Source: Balneolia bacterium (GTDB lineage: Bacteria; Bacteroidota; Rhodothermia; Balneolales; Cyclonatronaceae). Taken from it: 64,000 bases of DNA. A program made the translations under genes and the position numbers. The notes under the pieces were generated by a model, which had not been told where the DNA came from, ran no database searches, and was given only the letters and a program-made list of their open reading frames with translations. Positions 17,150 through 51,145 of this stretch are shown piece by piece (the first letter of the stretch is position 1; each line of letters begins with the position of its first letter). Location: contig JAIUMA010000004.1 of assembly GCA_022565795.1 (NCBI GenBank), positions 1 through 64,000 on the forward strand, in the 5' to 3' direction.

Positions 17150-17642
17150 CAGAAAGCTCCGGATGGTGTTTTTTCCAAAGGCCAAAAATACGAAATGATA
17201 TCTGATATTTGATATCTGATTGCTGATTTTTGAATGGACAGTCGAAGGTCGAAAGTCCAAGGTCCAAGGTCTTCAGATATGCGATTTTTGATGTGATTTG
17301 ATGAGGGGGATTGAGAGAGGGAGTGAGGGAGAGAGGGAGTGAGGGAGAGAGGGAGAAGAAAACCCCAAACCTGCATGGCTTCGCTGTGACAGACAAGCCG
17401 CAGATTCGCGCGTAATTAGAAAGGATTAACGCGAATTAAGGCAAAAGTGGTTGCAGTTTGCCCCGTAACATATCATAGCCCATCATTTAATCATACGAAT
17501 CACAGTTCAAAACAGTCGAAGGCCTCTTAGAATTCTGTGAGTGAGGGTGTAACCCCAAACTGGCGCAGAGAGCGTAGCGAGCCGCCTCAAACAGCGAGCG
17601 TTAGCGAGCTCAAACACCCTTCAAATGCATCCCAAGCCGATT
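17150..17642. other. Noncoding repeat-rich stretch with purine microsatellite
   Basis: No credible gene. The stretch contains GATATCTGAT-type words (17196-17225), AAGGTC/AAAGTCC words (17231-17271), GATATGCGATTTTTGAT at 17276-17292 (repeated exactly at 47251-47267), a purine tract and AACCCCAAAC at 17361 and 17551 (again at 54955). Near 17566-17617 two similar copies of a GCG-T-AGCGAGC word sit side by side. Short Leu/Pro/Ser-rich reading frames through the purine tract have no coding character. Confidence 0.7.
17317..17355. repeat. 16-base purine tandem repeat, 2.4 copies
   Basis: The unit GAGGGAGTGAGGGAGA occurs at 17317-17332 and 17333-17348, followed by seven bases of a third copy. All purine on the plus strand. 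It could change length by slippage and might form triplex or G-rich structures, but no function is evident. Confidence 0.85.
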
Positions 17643-47163: not shown

Positions 47164-48187
47164 GCAGGATGAAGGGTTTGGTAAGTAGAATTGGGGTATA
47201 ATCACATTACCCTGCAAAGATACAGCTTAGATTTTTGAGATCTGATTGATGATATGCGATTTTTGATTGGGGGGGAGGGGGACTACCAATCCGCGGGCTA
47301 GCGGAACGAAGGTTCACTAAAAAGATGATAATCCGGCGCCAAAAAAACTTCCCTCCTGAGCGGCACATTGTGATTATAAGAACCGAAGTTTGATAACCTA
47401 ATTTCAATCGAATGAAATAAAGCATGCCCGCAGGATCTCCCATCATGTCTGCCCTGAGCGTAGTCGAATGGCTGGCAACTCTCGAATCGAAGGCTCAGTA
47501 TCCATCCGGATTCAGCACCTGATAGGAGGGGAACCCTGCCAAGTCTGGCAGGCAGGCACGAGGGCACGAAGGCCCGAAGATAGTCGAGAAGAGATTCTTC
47601 GCGAACTTCGTGCAACCCTTCGCGAACTTCGCGGTTAAGCAAATCTGAAGGTTTTTACCGCGAAGTGCACGAAGTACGATCGCGAAGTGCACAAAGGTGT
47701 ACAATAGTTTTTAATGAGTGTAATAAGCTCACTTGCCTCACCCACTCACCCCATCTCCCACTCTTTAAAAATCCCGGCCCAGTCCTGCTCATCAGAGTCC
47801 ATCCCGAAAATCCTGCTTCAAAGAGCTGAACTGTGATTAGGTATGATTTTCCTGATGTGCTGTGATTTTTTGGGGGATAAAAAACCAAACTACAAAACCC
47901 AAAAAGACCGGAAACCCTTCTCGCCCTTCGAGCAAACCTTCGCGTTCCGTTGTGCCTGCATTCACACCTGAATGGTTAAGCAATCACCATTCAATCAAAA
48001 TAAATAAGCAGATAAAAATAAATTGTATGCGTTTTTATAACAGCTAACCTTTTACAGTACTTATACTTAATTTTTTTTGCAGGGAGATATGGCCCTTGTT
48101 GTAAAACTAATTTTAAATATAAATTGTTTTTTACATTGGGGGGGGGCTATAATAGCGTCGAACTGAAAATATTTAAGACTCTATTAC
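47164..48187. other. About 1 kb gene-free, repeat-rich DNA
   Basis: No credible gene on either strand; frames that cross this area have no coding character. From left to right: GATATGCGATTTTTGAT (47251-47267, exact copy of 17276-17292) next to a G-rich run (47269-47281), a GGCAGGCAGGC word near 47545, and a cluster of CGCGAACTTCG/CGCGAAGTGCACGAAG words at about 47598-47697 that fold back on one another. The section from about 48000 is AT-rich and carries the promoter region of the next gene. Confidence 0.7.
48124..48153 (+). promoter_or_regulatory. Promoter-like site with G9 spacer tract
   Basis: A perfect TATAAT is at 48148-48153, directly after nine G (48138-48146) and one C. A TTGTTT at 48124-48129 lies 18 bases upstream of it, and TTTACA at 48130-48135 lies 12 bases upstream. 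The gene start is 34 bases further on. Homopolymer tracts in the spacer can change promoter strength by slippage, as in Neisseria porA. The -10/-35 reading assumes sigma-70-like elements, which may not hold in this lineage. Confidence 0.5.
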
Positions 48188-49639
48188 ATGCGACCATTTT
48201 ATTTAAAATCGGCACTCGTATTATCCTTTTGTTTTTTGCTTTTTCATCTGTCTTCATGTGACATGATTACGCAGGAGCGTTCCGGGATTGATGAGCAAAT
48301 TGATAATCTGCCACCTCTCATCTTTAATCAAATTCCATTCCCCGGAAAAGGCCAACCAGGGATCTCCCTGAAGAATAATGACGATTTAGAAAAATTTATT
48401 GTAAATTACAGTACGTTAAACACTACCGACAAGGAAAAACCGTATACATACGACAGGTTCGAGATCGTTTTCCCTGATGAAGTACTTTCGCTGGCAGATG
48501 GCAAGACACGAACACTAAAAGTGAGTTTTACTATCACCACAGACGATGTTCGCACAGATTCACGTTCTAATGATGACGGAGATTCAATTGTTAGAACAGC
48601 TAATATGATTATTCCTGACCATGATATAGCCGAATCCATGGTAAGAGCGCATTTGAGAACGTTCCAATTGGATAGCTTCTGGTCCAATATTGCAGTTAAA
48701 AATGATTTAGAGCTTGATCCAGAGTACGATTACACAATAAGAGTATTGTTGCCGGATGAATCTGTTTCAAACCGAAAATGTGACAGGCTGGTGGAAGAAT
48801 GGTTTTGTGAAATTATAGATGATTACTTAGAGTGCTATATGGCGCAAGTTTGCTACGCTAAATTCGAGGCCTGGGAAGGTGAGGGCGGTGGTAGCGATCC
48901 TGTCGATCCTGTCGATCCCGGCGAACCCGGCGGCGGCACCCCGCCAATAGGCGATGATGATGATCCTTGTGATGAATTTGGTGGCGGCGATGATGGTGAG
49001 GGCGACACAGGGGGCGGACACGACAACGACGAAGATTTTTTACCCCGCTTGCTCGAATGCTCCGAATGCGACGCCCCAAACCCGCCAGGCTGGTGCCCGG
49101 TTGATGATGAGGAGGAAGAGGAGGAAGTGTGCGATACAGAAGATGAAATTATAAATCATTTAGGTGATCAAGGTGTTTTAAATGAACTTTGGGAACTTTC
49201 AAATTATACCGATAACGAATTTGATAGGCTAGAACAAGGTGGATGGATTGTTGATGCAGGAAATGGGAACTTTGTGTTTCATGAATTTGGTGATGACTGG
49301 TTACGAAATGCGTGTAGAATCACTCATCCTGCAGAATTTGATATTCCAGAAGGAACTGTAGCAATGATCCATACACATCCATACACTGTAGGTGAAGAGA
49401 TGTGGGCTTGTCTAAATGTTCCTCAAGAAATAATTGATTTAGACCCAGATGGTTTTTCTAGTATAGTCAAAAAATATAATAACAACCCATCAGATCATGA
49501 TATAAACTTTCTAAATAGTTTGTCATCTATAGGTGTCAATATAGACGGGTACATTCTTGATAAGAATGGGATAATAAAATATGATAAAAACAGCACTGTA
49601 GCTGAAGTTGATCTTTATGCTATCAGGTGCGGATATTAA
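48188..49639 (+). CDS. Lipoprotein with Asp/Gly/Pro linker and JAMM-like C-terminal domain (polymorphic-toxin-like)
   Basis: A 483-residue protein in distinct parts. Residues 1-24 are a lipoprotein signal with LSSC at 21-24. Residues 25-230 form a beta-rich N-terminal region of unknown family. Residues about 230-320 are a low-complexity linker (DPVDPGEPGGG, DDDDPCDEFGGG, ECDAPNPPGWCP) ending in an acidic run. The C-terminal domain (about 325-483) has HTHP at 395-398 and SxxD at 435-438 (PSDHD), a JAMM/JAB-type zinc metallopeptidase-like arrangement, with Glu366 as a possible upstream catalytic residue. The C-terminal codons are visibly AT-richer than the surrounding genome. I infer an exported effector with an exchangeable toxin domain; the activity is untested. 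Confidence 0.78.
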   Translation: MRPFYLKSALVLSFCFLLFHLSSCDMITQERSGIDEQIDNLPPLIFNQIPFPGKGQPGISLKNNDDLEKFIVNYSTLNTTDKEKPYTYDRFEIVFPDEVLSLADGKTRTLKVSFTITTDDVRTDSRSNDDGDSIVRTANMIIPDHDIAESMVRAHLRTFQLDSFWSNIAVKNDLELDPEYDYTIRVLLPDESVSNRKCDRLVEEWFCEIIDDYLECYMAQVCYAKFEAWEGEGGGSDPVDPVDPGEPGGGTPPIGDDDDPCDEFGGGDDGEGDTGGGHDNDEDFLPRLLECSECDAPNPPGWCPVDDEEEEEEVCDTEDEIINHLGDQGVLNELWELSNYTDNEFDRLEQGGWIVDAGNGNFVFHEFGDDWLRNACRITHPAEFDIPEGTVAMIHTHPYTVGEEMWACLNVPQEIIDLDPDGFSSIVKKYNNNPSDHDINFLNSLSSIGVNIDGYILDKNGIIKYDKNSTVAEVDLYAIRCGY

Positions 49640-49666: not shown

Positions 49667-50140
49667 ATGATTTTTATTTCTATTTTACTAGTGTTTTCTA
49701 CCTTGCATTCATTCTCAGGAAATATTGAGAAGCACGAATTGGTTGACGCAAATGTTTTAACGTTCAATGTAGAATATGTTGGTTGCCCAGATGGGTCAAA
49801 TACCTTGAAAACTAATACCTTGAGAATTACTGATAATATATTATCCTCTCAAGATTCAAATTATATCCACTTGAGATCCGAGTTGAATATGAGTCTGATT
49901 GAGTCTCAGGACCTTAGGATGCTTGAAAGTCCGATCGATAGTTTGGCTTGTGAGCAAATAAACCAGTTTTTAAATGAGTACCAAGTGGGATTTGATGACG
50001 ATAACTTTACGGCTATATATTACGAAGCTGGTGGGTTCTATTTTGCATCATTTGGCATCCAGTCAGGAAACATGATTGGTTTCGTTCCTATATACACATT
50101 TAATGAGGATTTTGAGCTAATTTATGTTTGGGTTGAATAA
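49667..50140 (+). CDS. Small exported protein, immunity candidate
   Basis: A 157-residue protein, 27 bases after the JAMM-domain lipoprotein and on the same strand, with equally AT-rich codons. The N-terminus is a signal peptide (MIFISILLVFSTLHSFS). The rest is mixed alpha/beta with acidic surface (YQVGFDDDNFTAIYYEAGGFYFASF). I do not recognise a family. In polymorphic toxin systems an exported immunity gene usually follows the toxin directly, so its position makes it the best candidate for neutralising the JAMM-like domain. This is inference; it could equally be an unrelated secreted protein. Confidence 0.7.
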   Translation: MIFISILLVFSTLHSFSGNIEKHELVDANVLTFNVEYVGCPDGSNTLKTNTLRITDNILSSQDSNYIHLRSELNMSLIESQDLRMLESPIDSLACEQINQFLNEYQVGFDDDNFTAIYYEAGGFYFASFGIQSGNMIGFVPIYTFNEDFELIYVWVE

Positions 50141-50187: not shown

Positions 50188-50601
50188 GTGAAAACGCCTG
50201 TGCGGATTACTCAGGATGTTGAAGTAATTACTCCATTTAACAGCGGCAGCCCTTGTGATAGTGTTATTGAGACAATATGGGAATATTGTGAATATATACC
50301 AGAATTAGATAATTGGTCATGTATTACGGAATTTATGTGTGTGTCAAAGTCAGAAGTGATTGACCCCGGTGGTGATGGCGAAGGGAGTGGACCCAGTGAT
50401 CCTGTCGATCCCGGCGAACCCGGCGGCGGCACCCCACCAGTAGGCGATGATGATGACCCTTGTGATGAATTTGGCGGCGGCGATGATGGTGACGGAACAG
50501 GATGTAGCGATAGCGACGAGGACTTTGCGCCCCACATGGCTGAATGCACTGAATGCGACGCCCCAAACCCGCCAGACTGGTGCCCTGCTGCTTCGCGAAG
50601 C
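50188..50601 (+). pseudogene. Headless second copy of the linker region (orphan cassette)
   Basis: A frame from GTG 50188 without signal peptide repeats the linker of the lipoprotein at 48188. Two stretches are identical at DNA level: 38 bases (48905-48942 and 50398-50435) and 25 bases (49064-49088 and 50551-50575). The protein order is the same (DPVDPGEPGGGTPP, DDDDPCDEFGGGDDG, ECDAPNPPDWCP). After WCP the reading runs into noncoding repeat-like sequence and into the opposite-strand lipoprotein gene, ending at 50784 without a C-terminal domain. Upstream at 50150 there is only a 13-codon start-like remnant in another frame. It looks like a displaced, decayed cassette. Confidence 0.75.
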
Positions 50602-50731
50602 ATCCGGATACCTCAGCGTTCTGCAAAAAAGTCTTTTTCCACCATCATCAATAAAGCCCTGCTTCAAATTGCGCCATTAAGCGTGTACTCCGCTCCCTTT
50701 GCGTCCATTTCTTTGCGTCCCGTCAAAAGTG

Positions 50732-51145
50732 CTAATCAGCCCGCAGATACAGCGTTTCGGGCCCGCCGAGGTGGGCTTCGCTAATCGCAAGGGAATCACC
50801 CCTTACGCCCCAGCGGCGATTTGACAGATATTCGTTGATGTTCTGGGTCTGATCGAGATCACCGTCTATGTAGAACTCCATTTGTCCGTCGCCGGGAAAC
50901 AAAAGCATCCGGCTGGTGCCGGTGCTGGCGGGCGTCTGCACAAAGGGCTCTTGTGTGTCGTTATCGAACGAAGCGGTATACTCCCAGTTCCAGCTTCCTG
51001 TTAACAGGGTGATATCACTTTCGAAATCCGAAAGATCAAAAGGAACTACGGTTGTATCGGTATCGGCATCATTTACGCCACAGCCCGCGAGCCAAAGCAG
51101 TGAAAGAATAGGTATTGCTGCAGGAAGAAGTTTTGAAAAATGCAT
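50732..51145 (-). CDS. Lipocalin-like small lipoprotein
   Basis: A 137-residue lipoprotein with lipobox LAGC (Cys about 22). The mature part has LLTGSWNWEYTASFDND (a lipocalin-like GxW opening) and further strands (GDGQMEFYIDGDLDQT, WGVRGDSLAISEAHLGGPETLYLRAD), consistent with a small lipocalin-like beta barrel of the kind frequently seen in this group. Ligand and function are unknown. It overlaps the 3' run-out of the orphan cassette on the opposite strand. Confidence 0.78.
   Translation of the reverse strand: MHFSKLLPAAIPILSLLWLAGCGVNDADTDTTVVPFDLSDFESDITLLTGSWNWEYTASFDNDTQEPFVQTPASTGTSRMLLFPGDGQMEFYIDGDLDQTQNINEYLSNRRWGVRGDSLAISEAHLGGPETLYLRAD

Follow-up and report, generated by a model that had tools for sequence, protein, structure and literature searches.

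Poly-G promoters and the locus under study

Promoters switched by simple sequence repeats are best known in host-adapted pathogens. Bacteroides, a distantly related group, also switches surface components, but through invertible promoters and site-specific inversion, not through slippage. The closest systems to the one described here are homopolymeric. The porA promoter of Neisseria meningitidis has a poly-G tract between its -35 and -10 elements, and expression falls in the order 11G > 10G > 9G (PMC3639595). The tp0126 promoter of Treponema pallidum also carries poly-G between -35 and -10 and works best with a 17-nt spacer (PMC7864442).

The locus described here lies within a window of 64,000 nucleotides (positions 1 to 64,000 of contig JAIUMA010000004.1, assembly GCA_022565795.1, from a Balneolia bacterium), where nine G stand in the spacer of a predicted promoter upstream of a predicted lipoprotein gene. 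As in porA, the gene is that of a predicted surface protein, and a change of one base would shift the spacer across its optimum. As in tp0126, whose tracts are mostly 7-11 G, the position of the tract, an optimum of 17 (which we infer here) and a surface-protein gene coincide. Unlike both, for which length variation is proven, together with graded expression in the case of porA, the anatomy here is known from sequence alone, and gene, protein and lineage are unrelated. The mechanism is already known; as far as the open-access PMC literature reaches, the lineage, the gene set and the conservation across genera are new, and no paper combining 'Balneolales' and 'phase variation' was found there. 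If the interpretation is right, free-living bacteria too make use of homopolymer contingency promoters, three genera from an environmental lineage having kept a G-run device.

Promoter anatomy and spacing

The promoter features are listed below.

48124-48129, + strand: putative -35, TTGTTT, within the box TTGTTTTTTACA
48130-48147, + strand: 18-nt promoter spacer (genome spacing optimum 16-18, peak 17)
48138-48146, + strand: G9 homopolymer, putative slippage tract within the spacer; the genome has one other G9
48147, + strand: single C between G9 and the -10
48148-48153, + strand: putative -10, TATAAT (TATTAT and TAAGTT at homologous sites)

The order is thus TTGTTT, TTTACATT, G9, C, TATAAT and the ATG at 48188, with the layout AAATTGTTTTTTACATT-G9-C-TATAAT. 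The initial annotation had placed TTGTTT, the G tract and TATAAT at these positions with 18 bases between the hexamers, and a recheck of the sequence found all of this exact; the tract also lies, as it said, just 5' of the lipoprotein gene, whose ORF starts at 48188. Promoters of the porA/tp0126 type have at least about seven G between predicted -35 and -10 elements, as does this one with G9 in an 18-nt spacer, and as do seven further sites described below. The predicted -35 shares 3 of 6 positions with TTGACA, which is why a plain sigma-70 scan leaves the site under its cut-off and does not list it. The -10 had been called perfect, and it does match the E. coli consensus, but the upstream regions of genes here show no enrichment of TATAAT (17 forward, 19 reverse); the enriched -10-like hexamers are TATATT (66 versus 16), TATTTT (97 versus 40) and also TATCTT.

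Spacing was examined by direct pair counts, forward versus reverse, in 1.23 Mb of sequence with 308 non-divergent upstream regions, a free EM motif fit having given no useful model. Pairs of TTGnnn and TATnnT are most frequent with 17 nt between them (14 forward, 1 reverse), and the looser TTGnnn-TAnnnT shows an excess at spacers of 15-18 and none at 19. The 18-nt spacer at this site is therefore near the organism's optimum of 17 (range 16-18). With the optimum at 17, one-base slips cross the useful range of spacers. Judged from these spacings, G9 (18 nt) is near-optimal and G8 (17 nt) optimal; G10 (19 nt) falls to background and is probably weak, and G7 would give 16 nt.

Rarity of long G runs

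The genome (3.59 Mb, 145 contigs) contains 36 runs of at least G7, five of at least G8 and two of G9, with no others of nine or more. The G7 runs, which were not annotated individually, look mostly coding from their context. Long G runs are avoided in this genome, not abundant, because a first-order Markov model built on the window, scaled up, expects roughly 16 G/C runs of at least nine per genome; a third-order model expects 0.24 long G runs in 1.23 Mb, against one observed.

Both G9 runs are flanked by a TTGYTT-TTTACA box on the 5' side and by a TATWAT -10 on the 3' side. The second, on contig C13, reads AATTTGCTTTTTACAAAC-G9-TATTAT and is preceded by TTGCTTTTTACA, so that its anatomy is that of the site in the window; it stands 169 nt 5' of a tandem pair of beta-propeller-like ORFs, for which the score against Pfam DUF5128 is just under the cut-off. 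From sequence features of this kind, we take it that the G9 within the predicted promoter at 48138-48146 is not there by chance.

Conservation at homologous lipoprotein genes

Homologues of the lipoprotein occur in two further genera of its family (f1), in genomes G008 and G009, the Balneolia MAGs T3Sed10_283R2 and T3Sed10_203R1, which were found by an alignment-based search of a public collection. A search of the same collection with the single lipoprotein sequence found nothing. T3Sed10 is a dataset of a study of Kulunda soda-lake sediment (PMC6146748); BioProject PRJNA434545 covers the metagenome reads for both MAGs. The homologues align over their full length, with identities of 40% (G008) and 28% (G009), and RCGY at the C-terminus is common to all.

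Upstream of the G008 homologue stands CAATTTGCTTTGTATTTAAT-G9-TATTAT, 37 nt before the start codon, and upstream of the G009 homologue CAATTTGTTTTTTACAATT-G9-TAAGTT, 40 nt before it. The corresponding distance in the window is 41 nt, giving a range of 37-41 nt over three genera, and the tract is exactly G9 at all three homologous sites, with one genome per species. Runs of at least G8 number 12 in G008 and 9 in G009, and the rough joint chance that both homologues have one in the correct orientation within a 60-nt window is about 1e-8. Outside the family, the homologue in G034 lacks an upstream G run.

Recurrence before genes for secreted proteins

The pattern GGGGGGGN{0,2}TATNAT was searched over 98 genomes of the order, and intergenic matches before secreted-protein genes were found in family f1 only. 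The device was considered outside that family and rejected there, as the other matches lie mostly within long open frames. TTG-N6-12-G7-TATTAT gave three matches in 245 genomes of the class, all in family f1 and all before secreted-protein genes, versus one match for the same search run backwards. A further operon, with TTGACT-TTTAAAT-G9-TATTTT, came from a protein search that used a beta-propeller lipoprotein as query and took no account of the DNA pattern. Eight sites with a TTG box in family f1 result:

G000:C4 (the window site): spacer 18, G9
G000:C13: spacer 18, G9
G009:C326: spacer 18, G9
G008:C188: spacer 19, G9
G008:C198: spacer 16, G8
G008:C152: spacer 16, G9
G007:C132: spacer 15, G7
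G007:C146: spacer 16, G8

Tracts range from G7 to G9 and spacers from 15 to 19 nt, with exactly G9 at five of the eight. The box TTGTTTTTTACA is common to the window site and G009:C326, and takes the form TTGCTTTTTACA at the second G9 of the genome; an upstream box TTGYTTTTTACA is common among the sites. A ninth candidate, G009:C279, is G11-TATAAT without TTG. At all sites the tract ends 0-2 nt before the -10-like hexamer. TTG at a spacer of 15-19 is present at 8 of the 9 sites and at 12 of 66 other intergenic-like tracts of at least G7 in the family (binomial about 9e-6, a figure that is indicative only, the sites having been picked after looking).

Signals read from the sequence predict a secreted protein or lipoprotein after all eight sites, so that here as elsewhere the downstream gene is a predicted surface or secreted component. 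Three of the eight precede the lipoprotein, one a beta-propeller protein, and four signal-peptide peptides of 79-83 aa, with a beta-propeller lipoprotein next in three of these four. That G runs generally serve in promoters was ruled out, since the 69 tracts of at least G8 in G005, a closed genome of a genus relative, mostly lack such anatomy.

The promoter-spacer interpretation of the initial annotation thus gains strong support from conservation in three genera, from eight like sites before secreted-protein genes and from a spacer near 17, and we regard the G9 as very probably a selected promoter-spacer element. That the promoter lies elsewhere, the G run being a neutral relic or a chance run, would accord with the weak -35, the unenriched TATAAT and the predicted status of both elements. 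This is very unlikely in view of the three-genus conservation, the recurrence at eight promoters and the rarity of long G runs otherwise. The start site is likewise predicted, which would leave room for a tract that acts after transcription or through DNA or RNA structure, for instance in a 5' leader transcribed from an upstream promoter, and not through spacer length. Such action is highly improbable, as it would account neither for the 0-2 nt between tract and hexamer everywhere nor for the TTG that eight of the nine sites have at 15-19 nt. A frame switch at the lipoprotein gene is excluded, the tract being outside the ORF.

Slippage or a fixed element

As a selected spacer element, the tract may be either variable or constant in length. 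G9 would form part of the lipoprotein core promoter, where it fills the spacer that separates the TTG-type -35 from the TATWAT-type -10. Replication slippage would add or remove single Gs in tracts this long, altering the spacer and so switching promoter strength reversibly; such switching is to be expected because G runs of this length slip by single bases. Use of this start site, slippage of the tract in the cell and its effect on expression are what we infer from this anatomy.

Under selection for constant length, the G run could instead serve the promoters of a small secreted-protein regulon as a fixed spacer or as a binding element for a regulator, with no switching. Exactly G9 at 3/3 homologous sites counts against switching and is what a fixed element would also give, as is G9 at five of eight sites overall, and the shared box TTGYTTTTTACA suggests a common regulator or sigma factor. 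A rigid element would, however, forbid the differences in spacer (15-19) and tract (7-9) among the sites, and the variation between G7, G8 and G9 counts toward switching. G runs of at least eight are unstable in well-studied bacteria, and they also differ between repeat copies in G005. We therefore consider a fixed element unlikely, if worth keeping in mind, and phase variation by slippage, of the porA/tp0126 type, a reasonably probable property of the G9 promoter.

The G005 copies lie at G005:C1:3755000-3788000, with G9, G13, G9 and G11 just past an ATG; their flanks are about 90-96% identical. As a translational switch they were ruled out, the frames being open for only about 34-54 codons. 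They are possibly an unstable coding tract or a repeat element, and their length differences are an indirect sign of tract instability.

A like device before several operons for secreted peptides and lipoproteins in family f1 would produce a population mosaic of surface-protein expression states. More tentatively, and with some doubt, we suggest a multi-gene phase-variable poly-G regulon in family f1, comprising polymorphic-toxin-like lipoproteins and peptide/beta-propeller operons, as a contingency for competition or phage exposure and not for host immunity. The eight listed promoters form a test set for G-length switching.

The lipoprotein gene and its neighbours

The genes downstream of the promoter are as follows.

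48188-49639, + strand: predicted lipoprotein of 483 aa, signal peptide ending LSSC, Cys24
49130-49636, + strand: its C-terminal domain, in which a conserved Asp follows HTHP; it resembles JAB/JAMM in motif only
49667-50140, + strand: ORF of 157 aa with a signal peptide, 3' of the lipoprotein ORF

The lipoprotein consists of an acidic linker, a CDxPNPPxWC motif and the C-terminal HTHP domain, in which HTHP and the downstream Asp are kept in the homologues. The domain has no Pfam match, and its AlphaFold model (pLDDT 41) is uninformative. The gene had been described as coding for a toxin-like surface lipoprotein. The lipoprotein part agrees with the signal peptide and its lipobox-type Cys, the surface location being predicted at most; 'toxin-like' had its basis in the HTHP...D motif alone. 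We do not file the protein as a toxin, while its C-terminal motif recalls the JAB/JAMM domains of polymorphic toxins.

The 157-aa ORF is probably in the same operon and is possibly the partner of the lipoprotein, being in an immunity-like position; a secreted ORF, of 148 aa, also comes after the G008 homologue. Further downstream, 50188-50784 contains a second, N-terminally truncated copy of the linker; it matches residues 185-305 at 61% identity and resembles a remnant or a silent cassette. Past the G008 homologue (G008:C188:3193-10633) are fragments that repeat its linker and differ in their C-termini. A small secreted ORF comes after each of them, and the arrangement resembles an array of cassettes for alternative C-terminal ends.

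Other repeats

Contig G007:C56 starts with GTT-G11-TAGGTT, 250 nt 5' of a secreted ORF of 698 aa, and is perhaps an assembly break at a G tract caused by mixed tract length. In the window, a second G-rich run, GGGGGGGAGGGG, is intergenic at 47269-47280, about 870 nt upstream of the promoter, and a tandem repeat of GAGAGAGGGAGTGAGG occupies 17303-17356 in 2.7 perfect copies.
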